The notes under the pieces were generated by a model. The model was not told the DNA's origin, ran no database searches, and was given only the letters and a program-made list of their open reading frames with translations. A stretch of DNA of 64,000 nucleotides, from positions 1 through 64,000 of the forward strand of contig JAGRPI010000006.1 of NCBI GenBank assembly GCA_019449635.1, read 5' to 3'. Both the position numbers and the translations under genes were made by a program. The stretch is from Candidatus Ferrigenium bremense. Lineage in GTDB: Bacteria > Pseudomonadota > Gammaproteobacteria > Burkholderiales > Gallionellaceae. How positions within the stretch are numbered: position 1 is the stretch's first letter; each line of letters opens with the position of its first letter. This document shows, piece by piece, positions 32,931-61,378 of this stretch.

Positions 32931-33929
32931 ATGACTGCCGTAATGTCGCGCCGCCGCTTCATCACTTTTGTCGCCGCTGCTGCCGGCTTGCCGCTGCTGC
33001 TTAAGGCGGGGGCTAGCCAGGCCAAGCCGGTGCGCTGGGAAGGCACCGCGCTGGGTGCGCCGGCCTCCATCCAGCTTTACCATGCCGACGAGGCGCAGGC
33101 GCGTGCCGCCATCGCTGCCGGACTGGACGAACTGAAACGCCTTGAGGCGATTTTCAGCGTTTACCGTGCGGACAGCTCCATCTCGATGCTCAACCGCGAA
33201 GGCGTACTCGAAAACGCACCGGACGATTTCATCGCCATGCTGACACGCTCTTTGGCGCTGGCCAGGATCAGCGACGGCGTCTATGACCCCACTATCCAGC
33301 CGGTATGGCAAACCTATTTCCGCCATTTCACCGCAAACAATCCTGATCCTGCCGGGCCGACGCCACGCGAGCTCGCCGCCGCGCTGGCATTGGTGGACTG
33401 GCGTGCAGTCGAGGTGGACGCTGCACGCAAGCGCATTTCCTTCTCCCGCCCCGGCATGGGGTTGACGCTGAACAGCGGCGCGCAGGGCTATATCACCGAC
33501 CGTGTCGCCGATGTGCTGCGCGCCCATGGCTTCGACCGCATGCTGGTTGATATGGGCGAACCGCGCGCACTTTCGGCCAAGCCGGACGGCTCAGCCTGGC
33601 GCATCGGCATCGCCGATCCCGCCAATCCGGGCCGTACGGTTGTCACGCTGGATGTGGTGGATAAATGCGTTTCCACTTCGGGTGGGTACGGTACCTTGTT
33701 CGATTCCGCGGGTGCTTTCACGCATCTGATAGACACCCGCAACGGGCGCACAGCACCGGCGCTGCTGGGGGTCTCGGTGGTGGCAAACACTGGCGCTGTT
33801 GCCGACGGCCTTTCCACCGCCATGCTGATGGCCCCTGCCGAGAGCCGTCAACATATTCTCCGTTCTGCCGGCGGTCAGAAGGCGATCTACGTCACCCCCG
33901 AGGGTGTGGTTTCGACCGTAGAGGCATGA
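32931..33929 (+). CDS. apbE: FAD:protein FMN transferase ApbE
   Basis: The 332-residue ApbE attaches FMN to Thr residues of Rnf and related proteins. It has a twin-arginine-like or Sec N-terminus (S-R-R-R-F-I followed by a hydrophobic stretch to about residue 30), the G-A-x-A-K-G-like G-A-Q-G-Y region near 185 and the V-S-T-S-G-G-Y segment near 245. GAGG lies about 8 nt before ATG 32931. It overlaps rseC by 4 nt and heads the Rnf operon, so its substrates are very likely RnfG and RnfD. It acts in the periplasm. Confidence 0.93.
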   Translation: MTAVMSRRRFITFVAAAAGLPLLLKAGASQAKPVRWEGTALGAPASIQLYHADEAQARAAIAAGLDELKRLEAIFSVYRADSSISMLNREGVLENAPDDFIAMLTRSLALARISDGVYDPTIQPVWQTYFRHFTANNPDPAGPTPRELAAALALVDWRAVEVDAARKRISFSRPGMGLTLNSGAQGYITDRVADVLRAHGFDRMLVDMGEPRALSAKPDGSAWRIGIADPANPGRTVVTLDVVDKCVSTSGGYGTLFDSAGAFTHLIDTRNGRTAPALLGVSVVANTGAVADGLSTAMLMAPAESRQHILRSAGGQKAIYVTPEGVVSTVEA

Positions 33930-34432
33930 CCATGGACGAGTTTGCGCATAGCACTCAGGATTTCAGCGCGCCCGCGATGGTTGAGGGCATAGCTCAAGTA
34001 GTGAAGATAGAAGGCAAGACAGCCTGGCTGGTACCCGAGCAGGGTTCGAGTTGCGGCAGCTGCGCCTCCGCGTCCGCATGCGGTTCAAAGGGTGTTGGCA
34101 CCACGGCCAGCCGGCTGGAGAATCGCCGTTTCCGGATAAACAACGATGCCAACCTTGCCGTCGGTGAGCGCGTCGTGTTTGGCATTCGCGATAATGTGCT
34201 GCTCAAGGCCTCGATCGCCGCCTACGCCATCCCGCTCGCCAGCCTGCTGCTTGCCGGGTCGCTGGCGCAATGGAAGTTCGGCAGCGATCTCATCACCATG
34301 GGGGCGATGATCGCCGGCCTGGTAATCGGGCTGGGGGTTTCGCGGCTGGAGGCGAGGCGTTTATATACCAGGGGCGATCTCGCTCCGCTGTTTCTGCGCC
34401 GTGCCAGGCCCGGCGAAACGTGTAGTTCTTGA
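33926..34432 (+). CDS. rseC: RseC/MucC-family protein associated with Rnf
   Basis: The 168-residue membrane protein has an N-terminal cytoplasmic part with a cysteine cluster (C43, C46, C52 in the C-G-S-C ... A-C-G segment) and two transmembrane helices near 95-140. That is the layout of RseC/MucC, implicated with Rnf/Rsx in keeping SoxR reduced. ATG 33926 overlaps the apbE stop. A second in-frame ATG at 33932 is possible. Its place between apbE and rnfA suggests a role in assembly or electron transfer of the Rnf complex. Confidence 0.88.
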   Translation: MTMDEFAHSTQDFSAPAMVEGIAQVVKIEGKTAWLVPEQGSSCGSCASASACGSKGVGTTASRLENRRFRINNDANLAVGERVVFGIRDNVLLKASIAAYAIPLASLLLAGSLAQWKFGSDLITMGAMIAGLVIGLGVSRLEARRLYTRGDLAPLFLRRARPGETCSS

Positions 34433-34451
34433 GTAGGCAAGGGATAGCATA

Positions 34452-35033
34452 ATGAAAGAATACATACTCCTGATGTTCAGTGCGGCGCTGGTCAACAACG
34501 TCATTCTGGGCCGCTTCCTCGGTCTGTGTCCGACGATGGGCGTGACCACGCGCCTGGATGCCGCCGTCGGCATGGGCATGGCGACCACCTTCGTGATGAC
34601 GGTTGCGGCCATCGCTGGCTGGACGGCCAACACGTTCCTGCTGACCCCCTTCGATCTGGGCTATCTGCGCACCATCACCTTCATCCTGATCATCGCCTCC
34701 ACCGTCCAGTTCACCGAGTTGGTGGTCAAGAAAGTATCACCGTCGCTGTTCCAGTTGCTGGGCATCTACCTGCCGCTGATCACCACCAACTGCGCCGTGC
34801 TCGGCATCGCGCTGCTGCTGGTCGACGCCAAGATGAGCATCCTCACCAGCGTCCTGTTCGCCATCGGTTCCGCCATGGGCTTCAGTCTGGTGCTGGTCAT
34901 GTTTGCCGGCCTGCGCGAACGACTGGCCGTGATGGATGTCCCACGCCTGTTCGCCGGTCCGCCGATCGCTTTCATCGTGGTCAGCCTGCTGGCGCTGGCA
35001 TTCATGGGTTTTTCAGGTATGGGAGCGAGCTGA
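34452..35033 (+). CDS. rnfA: Rnf electron transport complex subunit A
   Basis: The 193-residue integral membrane protein has six transmembrane helices, with N-N-V-I-L-G-R-F-L-G near residue 15 and T-T-N-C-A-V-L-G near 115 that carry the conserved cysteines of RnfA/RnfE (an intramembrane Fe-S site). AAGGGAT precedes ATG 34452. It forms the membrane core of Rnf with RnfE and RnfD. Confidence 0.96.
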   Translation: MKEYILLMFSAALVNNVILGRFLGLCPTMGVTTRLDAAVGMGMATTFVMTVAAIAGWTANTFLLTPFDLGYLRTITFILIIASTVQFTELVVKKVSPSLFQLLGIYLPLITTNCAVLGIALLLVDAKMSILTSVLFAIGSAMGFSLVLVMFAGLRERLAVMDVPRLFAGPPIAFIVVSLLALAFMGFSGMGAS

Positions 35034-35035
35034 TT

Positions 35036-35608
35036 ATGGTTAGCATGTTGATCGCGGTCGGCAGTCTTACGTTAATCGGCCTGACGCTGGGTACCGTCCT
35101 CGGCGCGGCTGCGCGCAAATTCGCCGTGAAGGAAGACCCTCTGGAAGAGGAATTGAAGGCCATGATGCCCGGTTCGCAGTGCGGCCAGTGCGGCTATGCC
35201 GGCTGCTCCCAGTACGCGGCGGCGCTGGCCAAGGGCGAGGCTGCTATAACACTGTGCGCACCCGGTGGCAAGCCGTTGGTCGAGGCGCTATCCGCAAAGC
35301 TGGGCGTTGCCGCCGACCTCTCCGATATGGAGGACAAGGGGCCGGAACACGCATACATCATCGAGGACCTGTGCATCGGTTGCACGCGCTGCATTAGGGA
35401 GTGCTCGACGGATGCCATCATGGGCGCCAACAAGCTGATGCACACCATCATCGTCGATGCCTGTCATGGCTGCAGCAAGTGCGTCAAGGTCTGCCCCACC
35501 GATGCCATTGTCATGGTTCAGTACCCGATGACGCTGGCCAACTGGCATTGGCCCAAGCCGGAAATCGAGAATACGCCCCCCAAGCCCGCGCTTGTGCATG
35601 CGCAATAG
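35036..35608 (+). CDS. rnfB: Rnf electron transport complex subunit B
   Basis: The 190-residue protein has an N-terminal transmembrane helix (about 4-26), an Fe-S domain (C49, C52, C57, C74) and two ferredoxin motifs (C113-x2-C-x2-C-x3-C and C143-x2-C-x2-C-x3-C). RnfB is the subunit thought to exchange electrons with ferredoxin. The start at 35036 lies 3 nt after rnfA. It is compact, without the long C-terminal cluster array of acetogen RnfB. Confidence 0.95.
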   Translation: MVSMLIAVGSLTLIGLTLGTVLGAAARKFAVKEDPLEEELKAMMPGSQCGQCGYAGCSQYAAALAKGEAAITLCAPGGKPLVEALSAKLGVAADLSDMEDKGPEHAYIIEDLCIGCTRCIRECSTDAIMGANKLMHTIIVDACHGCSKCVKVCPTDAIVMVQYPMTLANWHWPKPEIENTPPKPALVHAQ

Positions 35609-35620
35609 GAGTTGTCACAG

Positions 35621-37114
35621 ATGAAACTATTCCCCATACGCGGCGGTATCCATCCGGAATACCGCAAGGATATGACCAGTGAGAAGGCTATCGTTGCCAT
35701 GCCGATGCCGGCTGCACTCTACATTCCGCTGCAACAGCATATCGGCGCTCCGGCCGAGGTGCTGGTAGCCGAGGGCGACCTGGTCAGGAAAGGCCAGATG
35801 ATCGCGCGCAATCAGGGGGCGGTGTCGGCATCGCAGCATGCGCCCACGTCCGGCCGCATTACCTCGGTGGCGGAGGTCGCGGCGCCTCATCCTTCCGGGT
35901 TGCCGCAGAAGACCATCATCATCGAGCCGGACGGCAAGGACGAATGGGCCGACCTGCCCGAGCCGATCGCCGACCCGTTTGCCGCCGATCCGCACACGAT
36001 CCATGACCGCGTCGCCCAGTCGGGTATCGTCGGCATGGGCGGCGCCGCCTTCCCGTCGGCGGTGAAGCTGAACCTTGGTGCCCAGAAGAAGCTCGAGACC
36101 CTGCTGCTCAACGGCGCGGAGTGCGAGCCTTACCTGACCTGCGACGACCGGGTGATGCGCGAGTATCCAGACGAAGTGATTGACGGTGCCCGCATCATGG
36201 CCCACGCGCTGGGTACGGCCAAGGTGGTCATCGGCATCGAACAGAACAAGCCGCAGGCGATCGAGATCATGACCAGGGCGGCCGCTGCCTTCCCGGAGAT
36301 CAAGGTGGTTGCCGTACCGGTGCAGTATCCGATGGGATCGGAGCGCCATCTGGTGCAGGCGATCACCGGTCGCGAGACGCCGGCGCGCAAGCTGACCGCC
36401 GACCTCGGCATCGTGGTGCACAACGTTGCCACCGCACGCGCCGTGCACCACGCCGTCCGCTTCGGCCGTCCGCTGGTCGCACGCGTGGTGACGGTGAGCG
36501 GCGGCGCGATACGCGAACCCAGCAACGTCATGACGCCGATAGGCACGAAGGTATCCGACCTGGTCGAATTCTGCGGCGGTTTCTCGGCGCGCCCCGAGAG
36601 TGTGGTCAACGGCGGGCCGATGATGGGCCAGCCGCTGCCCAGCCTGGACGTACCGGTGGTCAAGGGCACCTCGGGTATCCTGGCGATGACCGCAGAGGAG
36701 ATCAACAACAGCCCGACCTCCGCGTGCATCCGTTGCGGCGCCTGTGTCACCATCTGCCCGTGCGGCCTGTCGCCGGTGGATATGGCGGCCTTCATCCGCA
36801 AGGATAATCTGGATGTTGCCGCCAAGCTCGGCGTGATGGACTGTTTCTCGTGCGGCAGTTGCTCATGGGTATGCCCGTCGCACATCCCGCTGGTGCATTA
36901 CTTCAACTATGCCAAGGGGGTGCTGAGAGAGCTGGAGAGTGAGCGGCGCAAGAGCGAACGCATCAAGACGCTGGCCGAGGTGCGCACCATCCGCATCGAG
37001 AAGGCCGCCGAGGCCAAGCGCGCCGCCCTGGCCGCGAAAAGCAAGCCGGCTGCAGACGCTGCCCCGCCGGGCGGGGAGACCAAGGCTACCACCGAAGAAA
37101 AGGTCAACGCATGA
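35621..37114 (+). CDS. rnfC: Rnf electron transport complex subunit C
   Basis: The 497-residue NADH-interacting subunit has G-M-G-G-A-A-F-P-S and N-G-A-E-C-E-P-Y (NuoF-like FMN/NADH site, near 135-170) and two 4Fe-4S motifs (C-I-R-C-G-A-C ... and C-F-S-C-G-S-C ...) near 370-420. The C-terminal tail is Lys/Ala-rich, as in proteobacterial RnfC, but short. ATG 35621 is favoured over an in-frame TTG 9 nt earlier because AGGAG is well spaced from it. Confidence 0.95.
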   Translation: MKLFPIRGGIHPEYRKDMTSEKAIVAMPMPAALYIPLQQHIGAPAEVLVAEGDLVRKGQMIARNQGAVSASQHAPTSGRITSVAEVAAPHPSGLPQKTIIIEPDGKDEWADLPEPIADPFAADPHTIHDRVAQSGIVGMGGAAFPSAVKLNLGAQKKLETLLLNGAECEPYLTCDDRVMREYPDEVIDGARIMAHALGTAKVVIGIEQNKPQAIEIMTRAAAAFPEIKVVAVPVQYPMGSERHLVQAITGRETPARKLTADLGIVVHNVATARAVHHAVRFGRPLVARVVTVSGGAIREPSNVMTPIGTKVSDLVEFCGGFSARPESVVNGGPMMGQPLPSLDVPVVKGTSGILAMTAEEINNSPTSACIRCGACVTICPCGLSPVDMAAFIRKDNLDVAAKLGVMDCFSCGSCSWVCPSHIPLVHYFNYAKGVLRELESERRKSERIKTLAEVRTIRIEKAAEAKRAALAAKSKPAADAAPPGGETKATTEEKVNA

Positions 37115-38187
37115 GTATCGCAATCATGAAGAAGAGCGGGCCGTTTGCCCACGGGTTCAACACGGTCCAGAAGACCATGTTCACGGTGCTGCTGGCGCTG
37201 ATGCCAGCCACCCTTTTCAATCTCTATCTGTTCGGCTGGCCGGCGATCCTGCTGTTCACCATCACGGTCGGCGCCTGCGTGGCGGTCGAGGCGGCTTGCC
37301 TGTTACTGGCGGGCAAACCGGTGGTGGCGACTTTGGCCGACTGCTCGGCGATATTGACCGGCTGGTTGCTGGCGATGAGCCTGCCGCCCTGGGCGCCCTG
37401 GTGGATCGGCGTGCTGGCGGCGATCTTCGCCATCGCGCTGACCAAGCACGCCTTCGGCGGCCTCGGCCAGAATGTGTTCAATCCGGCCATGGTGGGTCGT
37501 ACCGTCATGCTGATCTCTTTTCCCGTGGCGATGACCGTCTGGGTCGCGCCGCATCCGCTGTTTTCGGCAGGCGCGCCGGGCCTTACCGAAGCCTTCGCCA
37601 TCACGTTCGGCGGCAACATGCCCGATACGGTGAGTGCGGCTTCGGCGCTGGGGTATATCAAGACCGAACTGTCGCGCGGCATCCCGGTGGCGCAGTCCAT
37701 GGCCCAGGTGCCCGACCTCATGGACATGACGCTGGGCTACCGTGCCGGCAGCATGGGCGAGACCTCGGCGATACTGATCCTGGCCGGCGGCCTGTTCCTG
37801 ATGGCGAAACGCATCATCTCCTGGCATATCCCGGTGAGCATGATGGGCTCGCTGTTCCTGATCGCGGCGCTGTTCCATGCCATTGACCCCGCGCGCTTCA
37901 CCTCCGGCACCTTCCACCTGATGTCCGGCGCCACTTTCCTGGGCGCGTTCTTCATCGCCACCGACTATGTGACCTCCCCGGTGTCCAAGACGGGGCAACT
38001 CATCTTCGGCATTGGCGTCGGCCTGCTCACCTGGAGCATCCGTAACTTCGCCGGCTACCCTGAAGGGATGGCCTTCGCGGTGCTGCTGATGAACTCGCTG
38101 ACCCCGATCATCGACCAATACACCCGACCGCGCGCTTTCGGACGCACCCGCAAAGGCGAACCGCTGCCCCTGGAGGAGAAGCCATGA
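37111..38187 (+). CDS. rnfD: Rnf electron transport complex subunit D
   Basis: The 358-residue membrane subunit has about nine or ten transmembrane helices and is related to NqrB. It overlaps rnfC by 4 nt. In most RnfD proteins a periplasmic-side S-x-A-T motif carries covalent FMN; the aligned stretch here reads D172-T-V-S-A-A-S178-A-L, with Ser where Thr is expected. A separate S-G-A-T at 272-275 lies in a helix segment that is usually S-G-G. Otherwise the sequence is normal for the family. Confidence 0.94.
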   Translation: MSIAIMKKSGPFAHGFNTVQKTMFTVLLALMPATLFNLYLFGWPAILLFTITVGACVAVEAACLLLAGKPVVATLADCSAILTGWLLAMSLPPWAPWWIGVLAAIFAIALTKHAFGGLGQNVFNPAMVGRTVMLISFPVAMTVWVAPHPLFSAGAPGLTEAFAITFGGNMPDTVSAASALGYIKTELSRGIPVAQSMAQVPDLMDMTLGYRAGSMGETSAILILAGGLFLMAKRIISWHIPVSMMGSLFLIAALFHAIDPARFTSGTFHLMSGATFLGAFFIATDYVTSPVSKTGQLIFGIGVGLLTWSIRNFAGYPEGMAFAVLLMNSLTPIIDQYTRPRAFGRTRKGEPLPLEEKP

Positions 38188-38840
38188 AATCGCAGCGCAC
38201 GCTGATACATGGGCTGATCCTCGGGGCTTTCTGCCTGGGCTTCGGATCGCTGCTCGTCATGACCAATGGCTACACCAAGGACGACATCGCCTTGCGCGCC
38301 CTGGAAGACCGGCAGAATTCGCTCGCGCAGGTGATTCCGGACAGCATCCACGACAACAACCTGGCAACGGATATCCTCACCCTGAAGAACGAGCAGGGTA
38401 GCGAGGTTACCGCCTATATCGCCACCAGGGAAGGCAAGGTGACCGGGGTGGCGTTCGAGACTTCCAGCACCGGCTACGCGGGCGCGATCAAGGTGATGCT
38501 GGGCGTGGATCCGGAGGGCAAGATCCTCGGCGCGCGCGTTCTGGCGCACAAGGAGACTCCGGGTCTCGGCGACAAGATCGAGGTGAAGAAGGGCGACTGG
38601 ATATTGCGCTTCACCGGCCTGAGCGTCGGCAACCCGCCAGTCGAAAAATGGAAGGTGAAGAAGGACGGCGGTATCTTCGACCAGTTCGCCGGCGCCACCA
38701 TCACGCCGCGTGCCGTGGTCAAGGCCATCCGCGAAGGGCTGCAGTTCTTCGACGCGAACAAGGCGAAACTAATGGAATTCAAGAGCGGCAAGACGGCAGG
38801 TGCAGAAGCCGCTGGCGCCGCAGCGAAGGGAGCAAAATGA
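38184..38840 (+). CDS. rnfG: Rnf electron transport complex subunit G
   Basis: The 218-residue protein has one N-terminal transmembrane helix and a periplasmic FMN-binding domain. The flavinylation motif A-G-A-T172-I-T fits the S/A-G-A-T-x-T/S consensus, giving T172 as the FMN-linked residue and a substrate of ApbE. The G-x-K-E-T-P-G-L-G-D segment near 120-130 is typical. It overlaps rnfD by 4 nt. Confidence 0.95.
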   Translation: MKSQRTLIHGLILGAFCLGFGSLLVMTNGYTKDDIALRALEDRQNSLAQVIPDSIHDNNLATDILTLKNEQGSEVTAYIATREGKVTGVAFETSSTGYAGAIKVMLGVDPEGKILGARVLAHKETPGLGDKIEVKKGDWILRFTGLSVGNPPVEKWKVKKDGGIFDQFAGATITPRAVVKAIREGLQFFDANKAKLMEFKSGKTAGAEAAGAAAKGAK

Positions 38841-38841
38841 A

Positions 38842-39522
38842 ATGACGACGATGGCTGAATACCGCAACATTGCGCGCGAGGGATTGTGGTCGAACAACGG
38901 CGTGCTGAGCATGATGCTGGGCCTGTGCCCGGCCATGGCCATGACCAACAGCGCCACCAACGGCCTCGGCATGGGGCTGGCGACGGCGTTCGTGATGACC
39001 GGCTCCGCCACGCTGGTGTCCATCTTCCGCACCCGCTTCTCCCAGGAGGTGCGCATCCCCGTCTTCGTGCTGATCATCGCGAGCATGGTGACCGTGGTGG
39101 ACATGTCCATGAATGCGTGGCTGCACGAGCTTTACAAGGTGCTTGGCCTGTTCATTCCGCTGATCGTGGTGAATTGCCTGCCGTTTGCGCGCATCGAGAT
39201 GGTTGCTTCGAAAAGACCCATCCTGCCTTCAATGGCGGACGGTTTTTTCATGGGGGTCGGCTTCACCCTCGCACTTACCTTCATAGGTGCGATAAGAGAA
39301 GTTGCCGGCTCCGGCACCCTGTTTGCCGACGCGTCGCTGCTGCTCGGTCCCGCCTTCAAGTTCATGGAGATGCGCGTGCTGCCTCCCGACACGGGGATAT
39401 TGATGATGATCCTGCCGCCCGGCGCCTTCCTGGTCACCGGTCTGGTGCTGGTGCTCAAGCGCATGATAGACGAGCGCTCCGCCAGGGTCGCCCAGCCCAG
39501 CGCCGCCCACTGCGCACCCTGA
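38842..39522 (+). CDS. rnfE: Rnf electron transport complex subunit E
   Basis: The 226-residue membrane protein has six helices and is homologous to RnfA. It has L-G-L-C-P-A-M-A near residue 27 and V-V-N-C-L-P near 105, the conserved Cys positions. ATG 38842 starts 1 nt after the rnfG stop with a GAAGGGAG site upstream. It completes the membrane core. Confidence 0.95.
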   Translation: MTTMAEYRNIAREGLWSNNGVLSMMLGLCPAMAMTNSATNGLGMGLATAFVMTGSATLVSIFRTRFSQEVRIPVFVLIIASMVTVVDMSMNAWLHELYKVLGLFIPLIVVNCLPFARIEMVASKRPILPSMADGFFMGVGFTLALTFIGAIREVAGSGTLFADASLLLGPAFKFMEMRVLPPDTGILMMILPPGAFLVTGLVLVLKRMIDERSARVAQPSAAHCAP

Positions 39523-52886: not shown

Positions 52887-54167
52887 ATGAATGTAAGTGG
52901 AATGCTCCACGGAGCTGGGTTGCTCAAGATCGTCGACTTCCCGGCATCCGAAGTACTCGGCCCGGAAGCCAGCGAACACGATATTCACAACTTGATCGAG
53001 CGTTGTGGCTCGGTTTTCGTCAAGCCAATATTCAGGGGCGGCATCGGCAAAAAGGGCAAGTCCGGGCTGATCGGACGCGCCAGCGACCTGAAGTCGGCGC
53101 TGGCCGAGAAAGAGCGCCTGTACTTTGCCGAATACAAGGTCGGTAATGCCGTCTACAAGTCGCGCGGGGTCACCTTCGAGGGTGCTGTTCCGGCCAAGCA
53201 CGAGATCTATTTCTCGATCACCGATTCGACCCGTTACCGCGCACCGGTCATGACGCTCACCCATCACGGCGGCATGGATATCGAGGAGCTGGACAAGACC
53301 CAGATCATCGAAGTCCCGTTCGATCCGCTGACCGGACTCAAGTCCTTCATCGTGTCCAATGCGCTGACCGACCTCGGCGCTCCCAAGGAAATCATTTCGC
53401 CGCTGGTACAGCATCTGCCCAAGCTGTGGGAACTGTACCACCACTACGGCATGTCCACGCTGGAACTCAATCCCATCCGCATGATGCCGGGCAAGTCCGG
53501 CTCGCTGATACCGGTGGCCTGTGACTTCAAGTGCGGCTTTGATCGCGATGATCCGCGCATGAACCGCCTGAGCCTGCCCGACGACCTGTTCGTCACCGAA
53601 GCCAATGACTTCGAGCAGGAGATCAACGAACTGCGTACCTATCAGGGCCAGAGCGACGTTTACGTGATCAACGACAAAGGCACGATCCTGGCTCCCACTT
53701 TCGGCGGCGGCGCGAATTCGCTGGTTACCGAAGTGCTGGGCAACGACGCCATCATCTCATCCGACTTCGGCGGCAACCCGCCCTACGAGAAGATGTACGA
53801 TGTGATGCGCATATCCCTCAAGTACTATCTCAAGCAGACGAATGTGCTGTTCATCATCGGTGGCAAGGCCAACAACACTGACATTTTCGTAACCTTCCGC
53901 GCCATGGCGGATGCGTTGCGCGACTACTTCAGCGAGCGTGGCCCCACACCGCTGTATGTGGTGATCGGTCGCGGTGGCCCGCAGGTGATACGCGGCATGG
54001 GCGCGTTCAAGGATGTGCTCGACTCGTTGCGCATTCCTTACAAGATCTTCGGCTTCGATTCCGCGATGACCGACGTGGTGAACTACGCGCAGGAAGCGGA
54101 TCGCTGGATGAAGAGCGGTGGCCGCGCCGAAGTGGCGAAGCTGCTGGGTCTGCCGGCGGATGCCTGA
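52887..54167 (+). CDS. aclB: ATP-citrate lyase small (beta) subunit
   Basis: The 426-residue protein has an N-terminal ATP-grasp domain like succinyl-CoA synthetase beta (K-P-I-F-R-G-G near 45) and a CoA-ligase-type second half. Segments T-F-G-G-G-A-N-S (near 271), F-I-I-G-G-K-A-N-N-T-D (near 324) and G-R-G-G-P-Q (near 356) match ATP-citrate lyase rather than SucC, which is encoded separately downstream. With AclA it cleaves citrate to acetyl-CoA and oxaloacetate using ATP and CoA, the defining rTCA step. AGAGGTAAGG precedes ATG 52887. It is the first gene of aclB-aclA-acn-icd-sucCD-fumA. Confidence 0.9.
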   Translation: MNVSGMLHGAGLLKIVDFPASEVLGPEASEHDIHNLIERCGSVFVKPIFRGGIGKKGKSGLIGRASDLKSALAEKERLYFAEYKVGNAVYKSRGVTFEGAVPAKHEIYFSITDSTRYRAPVMTLTHHGGMDIEELDKTQIIEVPFDPLTGLKSFIVSNALTDLGAPKEIISPLVQHLPKLWELYHHYGMSTLELNPIRMMPGKSGSLIPVACDFKCGFDRDDPRMNRLSLPDDLFVTEANDFEQEINELRTYQGQSDVYVINDKGTILAPTFGGGANSLVTEVLGNDAIISSDFGGNPPYEKMYDVMRISLKYYLKQTNVLFIIGGKANNTDIFVTFRAMADALRDYFSERGPTPLYVVIGRGGPQVIRGMGAFKDVLDSLRIPYKIFGFDSAMTDVVNYAQEADRWMKSGGRAEVAKLLGLPADA

Positions 54168-54278: not shown

Positions 54279-54311
54279 AAACAAAAATTGAATTAAGCAA
54301 AGGTGAATGCA

Positions 54312-57014
54312 ATGAGAAAGCCTGGTATCAAAGACTTCAAATACTACGTCGGTATCCGCTCACTGGCCGATATCGCGACCCGCGAGGACCGCATCTGCGT
54401 GCTGAACATCACCGGCAACGAATCCCGTACCGTGACCCCGGTCAGCCACGCCTATTCCGGCGGCAACATCGTGTTCGGCACTTCCCCCGGCCGCCGCGGG
54501 CAAGTCGTCGAGACACCTGCCGGCAACATCCCCGTGTACAACAACGTGCGCGAAGGCATGGAAGCCGGCCACAAGTTCAACGTCGGCGTGGTCTACCTGC
54601 CGCCTTCCGCCGTGCGCGACGGCGTGGCCGAACTGATCCGCATCAATCCCGACGTCGAAAAAGTCATCATCATCACCGAAAAAATATCGGTGCATGATTC
54701 GCGCGAAATCCGCGCACTCGGCCAGCAACGCGGCGTGGATATCTTCGGCGGGAACTGCCTGGGTGTGGCCGACTCCTGGAACCAGGTGCGCATCGGCGGT
54801 GCACTGGGCGGCGACAACCCTGGCGAAACCCTGCGCAAAGGCTCGGTTGCCATCTTCTCCAACTCCGGCAACTTCACCACCACCATCGCCAATTACCTGT
54901 CCATCGGCGGCTGGGGCACCACGACGCTGATCTCCAGCGGCAAGGACATCTACATCAATTACGCGGCGCCTGAATTCGCCTACGCCATGGCCAACGACGA
55001 GCGCACCAAGGCGGCGGTGTTGTATTCCGAGCCGGGCGGCTACTACGAACACGATGTGGTCTTTGACAAGCCGGTGGTCGCCTGCGTGGTAGGCCGCTGG
55101 AAGGCCAGCCTGACCCGCGCCGTGGGCCACGCCGGCGCCATCGCCGGATCGGGCGACGACGCGCGCGCCAAGGAAAAATGGTTCATGGACAAGTTCGGCG
55201 TGAACGACCTGTATACCCCCGGCAATCCGGTATGCTCGAAAAAAGGCGCGGTGGTCACCAACATCGCCCACATTCCAGAGGCGCTGACCGCGGTGATGAA
55301 ACTGAATGGCGTTGAGAAAGACTTCGCGCCGGAAGGCAATCTGGAACTGAAGCCATGGTTCGGCGACAACCAGGGCCTGAAGCTGCCCGCTGCACTTGAC
55401 ATCCCCGTGGTCAAGGCCCTGGCGCCGTACGACATGCAGATCGCGGAACTGCTGAAGAACGTCGGCGCCATCTTCCCGCGCCAGTCCATGAAGGACTGCT
55501 CGGGCAGCTCGGTGATGGATCCCAAGACGCAAGTCACCAAGGTCAACAACATCTCCATCCTCGACTGTTCCAAGCAGCCGCTGGAATCCAACCTGTGCCT
55601 GGCGCTGGTGCGCGAGCTCAACGACGAGAACGACAACGCGCTGTACAACCTCGCGGTGGCCGCGCACGTCAACCTGCACGGCGATGCCATGCTGGCCGCT
55701 GCCGAAGCCGCGCGCGAAGCGGGCAATGCGCCCAACACCGCGATCAGCGCAGCCGTCGCCCTGCTGGGGCCGAAGCGTGCAGATGCCGCGCGCGCTGCCG
55801 CCGACTCCCTGACGGAAATCTTCGCGCACTCCGGTTTGGCGAAAGACGACGACGAACAGGCCAAGGTTACGCCTGCTGCGGCTACCGCAGAACAACTCGC
55901 CACGCTGCTAGGCTCAGCCCCCGACGCCAAGGCCGAAGCCATGCTCAAGGCCTTCGACAAGCGCGGTGCGAAATCCGTATTTGTGAAGTATCTGCGCTCG
56001 CTCAAAGGCCATCCCACGGCCGACGCCGTGCTGGCCGCACTGACCACCACCGTGGCCTGGGAGCCGCTGATGCGCAAGCGCATCTCCAAGCTGACCGTGC
56101 GCAACCTGCCCTGGTACACCAAGCTGTTCGGCATGATCATCGGCGCGTCCACCGAAGCCAAGCACCACGCAGCCGGCAGCTTCTGCGGCGTGGACAACCA
56201 GGAAATCCTCGACTCCTGGACCGTCACGCAACTGGCCTACATCTCGCTCTTGGGCGAGCGTCCAACCGCAGCCAGCCTGCTCCCGCTGCAAGTCATCCTG
56301 GGACTCATCATTTCCAACGGCGTGGGCACCATCTCGGCACAGGGCTGCAAGGGCGCGGTATCCGCCGACGGCCCCGAGTCGCCGGAGCGCGTGCAGATCA
56401 ACAAGGGCATGATCGGCTTCCTCACCCACACCGGCTTCGCCCACGGCGGCAACGGCTACGAAGGCATCCAGTTCCTGATCGAGAATTTCAAGGACACCTC
56501 GCTGGCTGATGCGGGCAATGCCAACCACGGCCTCGACCTGAAGAAGATGACCACCGACTTCGCCATCTCCTTCAACAAGGAGAAGAAGCAGAGCAAGGCG
56601 CTGGGTACCGGCGTGCGCAACATCCCCGGCGTGAACCACCCGGTGTTCAAGGGCCTGCCGGTCAACAAAGACCCGCGCGAGACTTTCATCTCCGAGTTCT
56701 TTGCCGAGCGTGGTGAGAAGAACGTGTTCCACGACTTCTACAAGACGCTGGTGCAGTCGCTGTACGACAACGGTGTGACCAGCAACGTGTTCTGCGTGAA
56801 CATCGACGCCGTGATCGCAGCCTCGTTGCTCAAGCTCTTGTGGCCGCGCTACCGCAACGGCCAGTTCAGCGAGAACCTGATGGAAATGGCCGCCTTCACC
56901 GCCTTCCTGTTCGGCCGCATGGCAGGATGTGCCGGCGAGATTGACGACCACATCAACCGCGGACGCAACATGGATACGCGCACGCCGGCTTCGTCGTGCA
57001 CGCATGTTTCCTAG
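54312..57014 (+). CDS. aclA: ATP-citrate lyase large (alpha) subunit, extended form
   Basis: About 900 residues (numbering from an in-frame GTG 3 codons upstream; ATG 54312 preferred for its spacing from AAAGG). Residues 1-330 match succinyl-CoA synthetase alpha, with phosphohistidine H276 in V-G-H-A-G-A-I. Residues about 628-900 match the citrate synthase module, with N-H779-P-V-F-K, D790-P-R and N-I-D835. The 330-620 stretch is extra compared with the roughly 610-residue Chlorobium AclA. In the citrate synthase part H714-G-G resembles true citrate synthase where ACLs have F-G-G, while the usual A-D-H-G position is N672. This may be the divergent 'type II' ACL reported from Magnetococcus and tubeworm symbionts (recalled, not checked). 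Confidence 0.85.
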   Translation: MRKPGIKDFKYYVGIRSLADIATREDRICVLNITGNESRTVTPVSHAYSGGNIVFGTSPGRRGQVVETPAGNIPVYNNVREGMEAGHKFNVGVVYLPPSAVRDGVAELIRINPDVEKVIIITEKISVHDSREIRALGQQRGVDIFGGNCLGVADSWNQVRIGGALGGDNPGETLRKGSVAIFSNSGNFTTTIANYLSIGGWGTTTLISSGKDIYINYAAPEFAYAMANDERTKAAVLYSEPGGYYEHDVVFDKPVVACVVGRWKASLTRAVGHAGAIAGSGDDARAKEKWFMDKFGVNDLYTPGNPVCSKKGAVVTNIAHIPEALTAVMKLNGVEKDFAPEGNLELKPWFGDNQGLKLPAALDIPVVKALAPYDMQIAELLKNVGAIFPRQSMKDCSGSSVMDPKTQVTKVNNISILDCSKQPLESNLCLALVRELNDENDNALYNLAVAAHVNLHGDAMLAAAEAAREAGNAPNTAISAAVALLGPKRADAARAAADSLTEIFAHSGLAKDDDEQAKVTPAAATAEQLATLLGSAPDAKAEAMLKAFDKRGAKSVFVKYLRSLKGHPTADAVLAALTTTVAWEPLMRKRISKLTVRNLPWYTKLFGMIIGASTEAKHHAAGSFCGVDNQEILDSWTVTQLAYISLLGERPTAASLLPLQVILGLIISNGVGTISAQGCKGAVSADGPESPERVQINKGMIGFLTHTGFAHGGNGYEGIQFLIENFKDTSLADAGNANHGLDLKKMTTDFAISFNKEKKQSKALGTGVRNIPGVNHPVFKGLPVNKDPRETFISEFFAERGEKNVFHDFYKTLVQSLYDNGVTSNVFCVNIDAVIAASLLKLLWPRYRNGQFSENLMEMAAFTAFLFGRMAGCAGEIDDHINRGRNMDTRTPASSCTHVS

Positions 57015-57172: not shown

Positions 57173-59122
57173 ATGACCGCACTTAACGTTGCACAGAAAA
57201 TCCTCCTGGCCAATGCGGCCGGGGGATTGAAGCAGCTCCCGGAGCAGGGCAAGCCGCTGGAGATCCAGTTCACCCATACCCTTTACCAGGACGCCACCGG
57301 CACCGCTGCCGCGCTGGCCTTCGAGAAGATGGGCGTGGATCGCGTGAAGACCACCTCGGTCATCGTGGTGGACCACAAGACCCTGCAAGTCGGCTACATC
57401 GACGGCGACGACCACCGCTACCTCGAAACCTTCAGCAAGAAATACGGCTGCTGGTTCTCGCGCGGCGGTCTCGGCATCTGCCATAGCGTGTTCCTCGAGG
57501 ATTTCGCGACTCCCGGCAAGTCGGTGATCGGTTCAGATTCGCACACCACCAACGCCGGCGGCATGGGCATGCTGGCCATGGGCGCGGGCGGCACGGACGT
57601 GAGCTTCGCGATGGCCGGCACTTCCTACAAGATATCAATGCCGAACGTAGTGCAGGTGAACCTCACCGGTGCGCTGCATCCGGGTGTGCTCGCCAAGGAC
57701 GTGATCCTGAACGTGCTCAAGGTGATCGGCATCAAGGGCAACAAGGATATCTGCCTGGAATACACCGGGCCGGGCCTGAAGAGCCTGAATGTCACCGATC
57801 GTGCCACCATCTGCAACATGGGCACCGAGGCCGGCGTCGCCTTCTCGATCTTCCCGTCGGACGAGATCACCAAGGCCTATCTCGAAGGGCGCAAGCGCGC
57901 TGGCGACTTCAAGCCGCTGGCCGCCGATACGGGCGCAACCTATTCGCGTACCGTCGAGATCAACCTGTCCGACCTGCAGCCGACCATCGCGCTGTATCCG
58001 CGCCTGAAGGGCATGGAGCCGGTATCCAAGCATGCCGGCATGCCCATCGATGCGGTGTTCATCGGCAGTTGCACCAATTCCAATTACGAGAACCTGGCGC
58101 GCGTCGGCGAGCTGCTGCGCGGCAAGAAGGTCAAGGTCGATACCGCTATCGCCCCCGGCTCGCAGGCTATTGCGCGCCAACTGGCGGCGGCCGGCTATCT
58201 GGAAGTCTTCTACGCCGCCGGTGTGCGCGTACTGGAAAACGCCTGCTCCGCGTGTATCGGCCAGGGTTTCAGCCCACCCAGCAATGGCGTGATGCTGTCC
58301 ACCGCCAACCGCAACTTCGAAGGCCGTTCCGGCACCGAGACCGCTGCCGTGCATCTGGTCAGCCCGGTGACTGCTGCGGCGAGCGCCGTGATGGGCAAGC
58401 TGACCGACCCGCGCGATCTGCTCGCTGACAATCCCGATCTCGTCATCAAGCTGGTTCCGCCAGTGGTTGACATGGATGCCTATGTTGCTCCACTGCCGCC
58501 TGCGGAAGCCGCCAAGGTGGTGATGCGCTACGGTCCGGATATCGCGCCGCTGCCGACGCTCGATCCGTTGCCGGCCAAGCTGGCGGGCGAAGTGTTGCTC
58601 AAGCTCGGCAACGAGATCACGACCGACCATATCCAGCCTGCCGGCAAATATCTGTCGCTGCGTTCCAATGCGGACGAGTACGCCAAGCAGGCGACCTTCG
58701 TCCAGGTGGACAAGACCTTCAGTACCCGCGCGGCGGCAGTGCGCGATGCGGGCGGTCATGGTTTCATCGTGGCCGGCGACGGCTACGGCATGGGCAGTTC
58801 GCGCGAGCATGCCGGGCTGTGCCCGCGCATCCTCGGCGTGCGCGCCATCGTGGCCAAGGGCTTCGAGCGTATCCACCTGGCTAACCTCGCCAACTTCGGC
58901 ATCCTGGGACTGACCTTCGAGAATCCGGCTGACCTGGAGCGCATCCAGCAGGGCGCGAAGGTGTCCCTCGACACCTCCGGCCTTGAAAGTGGCCAGCTCA
59001 AGCTGGTGGTCGAGGGCGTCGGCGACATGCCTCTCAAGCTCGCACAGGGCAAGGAAGATATTCCGATGATCCGCGCAGGCGGAGCGCTTTCGCTGTTCGC
59101 CAGCCAGATGAAGGCGGCCTGA
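57173..59122 (+). CDS. acn: aconitate hydratase (short, mitochondrial-like type)
   Basis: The 649-residue aconitase interconverts citrate and isocitrate. The 4Fe-4S ligands are C300 (G-S-C-T-N-S), C358 and C361 (A-C-S-A-C). S-D-S-H-T-T-N (121-127) and the swivel-domain G-M-G-S-S-R-E-H near 545 are active-site segments. It is about 250 residues shorter than AcnA or AcnB and resembles the compact form seen in other rTCA bacteria. GGAGAG precedes ATG 57173. It lies 158 nt after aclA in the same operon. Confidence 0.93.
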   Translation: MTALNVAQKILLANAAGGLKQLPEQGKPLEIQFTHTLYQDATGTAAALAFEKMGVDRVKTTSVIVVDHKTLQVGYIDGDDHRYLETFSKKYGCWFSRGGLGICHSVFLEDFATPGKSVIGSDSHTTNAGGMGMLAMGAGGTDVSFAMAGTSYKISMPNVVQVNLTGALHPGVLAKDVILNVLKVIGIKGNKDICLEYTGPGLKSLNVTDRATICNMGTEAGVAFSIFPSDEITKAYLEGRKRAGDFKPLAADTGATYSRTVEINLSDLQPTIALYPRLKGMEPVSKHAGMPIDAVFIGSCTNSNYENLARVGELLRGKKVKVDTAIAPGSQAIARQLAAAGYLEVFYAAGVRVLENACSACIGQGFSPPSNGVMLSTANRNFEGRSGTETAAVHLVSPVTAAASAVMGKLTDPRDLLADNPDLVIKLVPPVVDMDAYVAPLPPAEAAKVVMRYGPDIAPLPTLDPLPAKLAGEVLLKLGNEITTDHIQPAGKYLSLRSNADEYAKQATFVQVDKTFSTRAAAVRDAGGHGFIVAGDGYGMGSSREHAGLCPRILGVRAIVAKGFERIHLANLANFGILGLTFENPADLERIQQGAKVSLDTSGLESGQLKLVVEGVGDMPLKLAQGKEDIPMIRAGGALSLFASQMKAA

Positions 59123-61378
<2,256 letters not shown>

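Follow-up and report, generated by a model that had tools for sequence, protein, structure and literature searches.

The aclBA locus

The window (the whole stretch of 64,000 nucleotides of Candidatus Ferrigenium bremense DNA that was analysed) carries the genes aclB, aclA, acn and icd, whose positions are given in Table 1 together with the domains and active-site codons of aclA. The aclA reading frame begins with an ATG at 54312, with AAAGG upstream, and its stop codon ends at 57014, in agreement with the length of about 900 residues that an earlier, sequence-only reading of this DNA had given. In the mechanical ORF call the gene has a GTG start at 54303 and is 903 aa long, and the residue numbers of the sequence-only reading follow this frame and are 3 too high, its H714, N672 and LHG at 458-460 being H711, N669 and LHG at 455-457 here. 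The aclB gene, whose product has Pfam matches to Citrate_bind (E 4e-16) and ATP-grasp_2 (E 5e-13), is separated from aclA by 144 bases.

Table 1. Genes of the aclBA locus, domains of AclA and codons of conserved residues (positions in the window)
Feature	Position	Strand	Size, basis or remark
aclB, small subunit, SCS-beta-like ATP-grasp and citrate-binding domain	52887-54167	+	426 aa
aclA, type II ATP-citrate lyase large subunit	54312-57014	+	900 aa
AclA residues 1-335, SCS-alpha-like (CoA-binding, phosphohistidine) module	54312-55316	+	Pfam CoA_binding, Succ_CoA_lig; 6hxq Z 31.1
H273 codon (GHAGA), phosphohistidine position, ACLY H760	55128-55130	+	invariant
AclA residues 336-403, SCS-alpha/CSH1 junction	55317-55520	+	alignment, low pLDDT
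CSH1, degenerate second citrate-synthase-homology domain, AclA residues ~404-618	55521-56165	+	domain model, structural matches, hhalign
CSH2, intact citryl-CoA lyase-type CSH domain, AclA residues ~619-900	56166-57011	+	sequence comparison
N669 codon, ACLY H900 position	56316-56318	+	invariant Asn in type II
H711 codon in HGG, ACLY F935 position	56442-56444	+	invariant
H776 codon in NHP, ACLY H975 position	56637-56639	+	invariant
D832 codon in VNIDA, ACLY D1026 position	56805-56807	+	invariant
R869 codon in FGR, aligned with Arg of type I LGRS (ACLY R1065)	56916-56918	+	invariant
acn, aconitase	57173-59122	+	649 aa
icd, monomeric NADP-isocitrate dehydrogenase	59150-61378	+	742 aa

The gene arrangement is that of type II ATP-citrate lyase (ACL), in that aclB and aclA adjoin and carry the SCS-beta and SCS-alpha modules, and are accompanied by genes for aconitase, isocitrate dehydrogenase and 2-oxoglutarate:ferredoxin oxidoreductase; type II ACL gene clusters with such neighbours have been described (PMC6315080). 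The nearest loci are from Gallionellaceae MAGs (Ca. Ferrigenium, Gallionella; 95-96% identity), and AclA is 55-60% identical over ~900 aa to the proteins of Magnetococcales, Nitrospina and gammaproteobacterial loci. An alignment of 34 full-length proteins (that of the window and 33 relatives from Gallionellaceae, Rhodocyclaceae, Azoarcus, Magnetococcales, Nitrospina and gammaproteobacteria) extends from end to end, including the middle region. Judged by its sequence, the AclA of the window is a postulated type II ATP-citrate lyase, and the product of aclBA is predicted to have ATP-citrate lyase activity. The suggestion of a distinct ACL class, made from the sequence alone, was thus correct, but this class had already been postulated (PMC3522073, PMC6315080, PMC6783814). 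An ACL of low similarity is known from Nitrospina (PMC3578206), and both MC-1 and tubeworm symbionts have been reported to cleave citrate (PMC6783814, PMC3522073).

The type II ACLs postulated in Magnetococcus MC-1 (Mmc1_3638/3639), the Riftia/Tevnia symbionts and Nitrospina gracilis belong to the same family and share the layout of two citrate-synthase-homology (CSH) domains described below. In the literature searched, these enzymes are called unusual or of low similarity, but neither two CSH domains nor a two-CSH AclA architecture is described, nor is a purified type II enzyme or its structure; hence the class is known, and its tandem CSH architecture is without earlier description in that literature. 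A sequence search of the PDB with AclA also returned no type II structure. Type I ACL (Chlorobium AclAB, human ACLY) resembles type II in its SCS-beta, SCS-alpha and CSH modules, in the phosphohistidine, and at the positions of H975, D1026 and R1065; however, it has one CSH domain with H at 900 and F at 935, where type II has N and H and, in addition, a second, presumably dead CSH domain. Whereas type I AclA is ~610-640 aa long and its single CSH domain contains ADHG and RFGG, the protein of the window has 900 aa, two CSH domains, and SNGVG and AHGG.

A second CSH domain in the middle of AclA

The sequence-only reading placed an SCS-alpha-like part at 1-330 and a citrate-synthase-like part at 628-900, and these are found at 1 to about 335 and ~619-900, respectively. 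The gap of ~290 residues that it saw between them is real, and is absent from type I AclA of a related phylum, which measures 623-639 aa where cleanly bounded (L084-L088, L101); the middle region is therefore foreign to type I AclA but standard in type II, being present in all of the 34 aligned proteins. Its proposed degenerate citrate-synthase-like block at 395-510 also exists, although as a complete second CSH domain that extends from about 404 to 618. AclA would thus consist, in order, of the SCS-alpha module, a junction, CSH1 and CSH2, the CSH module having been duplicated in tandem, and the ~290 extra residues would be accounted for by this tandem, half-dead CSH.

No Pfam family matched the middle region, and nothing significant was found for it among the PDB sequences. 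Weak matches to sorting nexins (E 0.6) were dismissed as chance. As the structural matches of the full-length AclA model were dominated by the SCS-alpha part, residues 388-621 were submitted to AlphaFold2 alone, and this model of CSH1 had a pLDDT of 87 and a pTM of 0.83. The best 50 matches obtained with Foldseek and VIA-align were all to citryl-CoA lyase, ACL CSH modules or citrate synthases. The Foldseek E-values were modest (5.8e-3 at best), and the VIA-align scores were above the value given for chance matches between helical structures (Z about 13): the best match, to the citryl-CoA lyase of Hydrogenobacter thermophilus (6hxp), had a Z of 16.9, and residues 17-231 of the model (AclA 404-618) aligned on residues 847-1075 of human ACLY with a Z of about 16. 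In the full-length model (pTM 0.59), type I ACL CSH domains often fell on the middle region and not on the C-terminal CSH domain. AclA 404-618, as modelled, is a domain of the citrate synthase/citryl-CoA lyase fold. The H. thermophilus enzyme, which is both the best structural match of CSH1 and the best PDB sequence match of CSH2, differs from AclA in being a separate single-domain enzyme with both the DHG and AHGG histidines.

Profile comparisons linked the two halves of the C-terminal part of AclA directly. In a comparison of residues 308-601 with 601-900 the E-value was 2.8e-7 (hhalign), and with more sequences and domain cuts that do not overlap CSH1 matched CSH2 at 7.5e-10. The matches to the single-CSH relatives described below were stronger, with E 6.8e-23 over 218 columns for CSH1 and E 2e-58 for CSH2, while the controls for CSH1 (reversed sequences and unrelated SCS) gave E 0.014 or worse. 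An HMM of the single-CSH relatives matched type II AclAs at 380-600 in 40 of 42 proteins and beyond 600 in all 42, its best reversed control reaching 0.2, and when genomes were searched with the CSH1 profile, one protein was matched in its CSH2 at 6e-6. The direct comparison of CSH1 with type I CSH showed no sequence-profile link (E 0.8), so that the tie to type I runs via the single-CSH relatives and the fold. A direct link to citryl-CoA lyase-like proteins was weak (E 0.009); this outgroup is itself weak, consisting of two proteins, neither of which reaches the NCBIfam citryl-CoA lyase cut-off, and a search of the class with that family yielded mostly longer proteins of the size of citrate synthase.

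These results leave almost no room for the view that the middle region has no kinship with citrate synthase and is a helical insert resembling it by chance. The lack of a Pfam match and of a significant PDB sequence match would fit such an insert, but not the profile similarity of 1e-22 to the single-CSH relatives with clean controls, a fold match that is independent of the profiles, or trees of the two copies that mirror each other. CSH1 and CSH2 are almost certainly homologous, tandem CSH domains.

Single-CSH relatives, active-site residues and the duplication

A search of the related phylum for the citrate-binding domain retrieved, besides type I AclA and further type II AclA, an AclA of 689 residues (L095) which is type II-like in sequence and has a single CSH domain. 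Two further single-CSH relatives (L103 and L104), 74-78% identical to it, come from the same order. These proteins (L095/L102, L103, L104) have the N, HGGNG, GHP, VNVDA and GR motifs and the junction in common with type II AclA, the latter corresponding to residues 336-403 of AclA, but they are ~690 aa long with one CSH domain in place of two. They were found in three genomes of one order, and in one of these (G294) the gene adjoins an aclB-like gene; a formate-dehydrogenase-like gene lies downstream at L095. A fused AclA has been reported for Planctomycetes DG20 (PMC5459899), and from the text of that report it appears to be of the same single-CSH, type II-like kind.

The single-CSH domain unites features that are split between the two copies of type II. 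Its SRQSMRNAS segment and AGNAPNT are CSH1-like, and its TNGPGTISAQGAK, HGGNG, GHPVF, VNVDA and LGR are CSH2-like. The single-CSH relatives have 191 invariant columns, of which CSH1 keeps 24, compared with a mean of 2.5 and a maximum of 8 for shifted alignments; another 51, including the N, HGGNG, GHP and GR, are kept in CSH2 only. The single-CSH AclA thus resembles a pre-duplication form, and together with type II provides a before-and-after pair for the duplication.

In the domain tree, a clade consisting of CSH1 and CSH2 had a support of 99/91 and each copy was monophyletic (100/99), with the internal branching of the two copies largely mirrored. Because the copies are sisters with mirrored branching, the best tree is most consistent with a single tandem duplication that preceded the diversification of type II. 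The AU test did not reject an alternative in which CSH2 groups with the single-CSH domains to the exclusion of CSH1 (p 0.21), and the exact branching of CSH1 accordingly rests on the 99/91 support in the best tree, in which long branches are present. A very divergent type II AclA (L096 777-3614, + strand; open frame of 946 aa, 38% identity to the protein of the window), which was retrieved in the same search, has both CSH domains and is basal in both domain subtrees.

The residue numbering could be anchored to human ACLY since the spacing in type I AclA matches that of ACLY: the successive distances from the E599 position to H760, H900 and D1026 are 161, 140 and 126, and F and H occur at +35 and +75 from H900. 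E599, H760, H900, R1065 and D1026 of ACLY have been discussed previously (PMC10115795). E123, H273, N669, H711, H776, D832 and R869 are invariant in the 34 type II proteins. CSH2 contains a lyase-type site in which the H975, D1026 and R1065 positions are kept but the histidine at the H900 position is not, N669 being present in all; H711 corresponds to the HG(G) histidine of citrate synthase. The single-CSH relatives carry the same residues as CSH2, including the N at the H900 position, and the swap of the two histidines relative to type I therefore predates the duplication. The sequence-only reading had rightly noticed both that a histidine in HGG occupies the place of a phenylalanine in ACLY and that an asparagine replaces the histidine of A-D-H-G; these residues are, however, class-wide and older than the duplication, and not special to this aclA. 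The LHG that it pointed out in the middle region is not a catalytic equivalent: this segment aligns with T-N-G-P-G of the single-CSH relatives instead of the HGG histidine, and the His in it is unconserved.

None of the CSH1 domains compared retains the HGG histidine, the GHP histidine or the catalytic Arg, and the loop that would carry GHP has been deleted. CSH1 is very probably non-catalytic. That it forms an additional functional active site catalysing a reaction of its own, for which one could cite the retained fold and the nearly invariant V453-N454 at the TN position, we regard as highly improbable in view of these losses. The domain nevertheless is retained by purifying selection despite its lost catalytic residues: within Gallionellaceae dN/dS was 0.11-0.17 for CSH1 and about 0.09-0.18 for CSH2, and against more distant loci (L020, L021, L023, L053) it was 0.33-0.44 and 0.16-0.31, respectively.

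The chemistry of the AclB and SCS-alpha parts, which passes from a phosphohistidine to citryl phosphate and citryl-CoA, is established for ACL and citryl-CoA synthetase, and the catalytic unit of citrate synthases is a dimer. By analogy, AclB and the SCS-alpha part of AclA would phosphorylate H273 and form citryl phosphate and then citryl-CoA, which CSH2 would cleave, or whose cleavage it would enable, with N669, H711, H776, D832 and R869. CSH1 would be a dead structural partner that stands in for one subunit of a citrate-synthase-type dimer, which is the most straightforward role for a dead CSH domain fused directly to a live one. A type II AclA with a tandem-duplicated CSH, in which CSH1 is the dead structural partner of CSH2, is probably the best overall explanation of the data, and it gives type II ACL a concrete, testable architecture. 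We see about an even chance that each AclA chain forms an intrachain pseudo-dimer with a single active site. More tentatively, and with the balance somewhat against it, this pseudo-dimer may be obligate, making the enzyme an asymmetric ACL with half the sites per dimer (e.g., A2B2, whose four CSH folds would provide two sites), in which citryl-CoA would be cleaved with H711, a histidine like that of citrate synthase, and not with the H900 machinery that type I uses.

Two other arrangements of CSH1 were considered. Halves of CSH1 and CSH2 might cross over into composite units, CSH1 then contributing directly to the active site, as a PrpC chain aligns over residues 395-886 of the full-length model (325 residues, 3.5 A), which is more than CSH2 alone could supply. 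The pTM of that model is 0.59, and CSH1 by itself is confidently predicted as a whole CSH fold, so such a swap seems improbable. Alternatively, CSH1 may be a former lyase domain with a regulatory function, binding an effector such as CoA, acetyl-CoA or another acid, and not the dimer partner of CSH2. Strong conservation at 394-407 and 468-475 and the combination of purifying selection with lost catalytic residues speak for such a role, and one group has argued that the CSH module of human ACLY is allosteric (PMC10115795). However, the 394-407 block is part of the junction inherited from the single-CSH ancestors, so that its conservation may be structural; we consider a regulatory CSH1 rather unlikely. 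To the dispute over a catalytic or an allosteric role of the ACL CSH module (PMC10115795), type II contributes a case where a CSH domain with the catalytic residues is naturally separated from one without them, and where two active-site histidines are swapped relative to type I.

Genome context and distribution

On the same contig, aclBA-acn-icd is preceded by genes for KorAB, PFOR, pyruvate carboxylase, a PPDK-like enzyme, PntAB, Rnf and Na+/H+ exchangers, and just downstream are those for SucCD, fumarase, an SdhA/FrdA-type flavoprotein, citrate synthase (gltA) and SucAB, the ordinary citrate synthase lying ~17 kb downstream of aclA. Together they form a reverse-TCA/pyruvate/PEP island of roughly 70 kb, which covers 11326-61378 in the window and continues to about position 79600 of the contig (L115). 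The genome has only two PFOR_II matches, both within the window, and a RuBisCO large subunit gene on another contig; with aclBA and PFOR_II it therefore contains key genes of both the CBB and the reverse TCA cycles, which have been found together in tubeworm symbionts and Thioflavicoccus (PMC6315080). The Rnf-type genes (RnfC, RnfD, FMN-binding subunit, ApbE; window 32931-39522) are near those for PFOR and aclBA and could be the source of the low-potential ferredoxin on which KOR/PFOR would draw in an iron oxidiser.

In the reverse Krebs cycle of Magnetococcales, Nitrospina, tubeworm symbionts and some Gallionellaceae, citrate is presumed to be cleaved by type II ACL. The ACL citrate-binding domain was detected in a fifth of the Gallionellaceae genomes (34 of 158). 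In the phylum sample, the middle domain was present in 39 of 398 genomes, nearly always in open frames of ~900-990 aa, and thus was not seen as a free-standing protein. One genome of the same genus (G079) has two ACL citrate-binding loci (L062), one of which holds an AclA fragment with just 70% identity to the AclA of the window; this suggests a second, transferred type II ACL in that genome.
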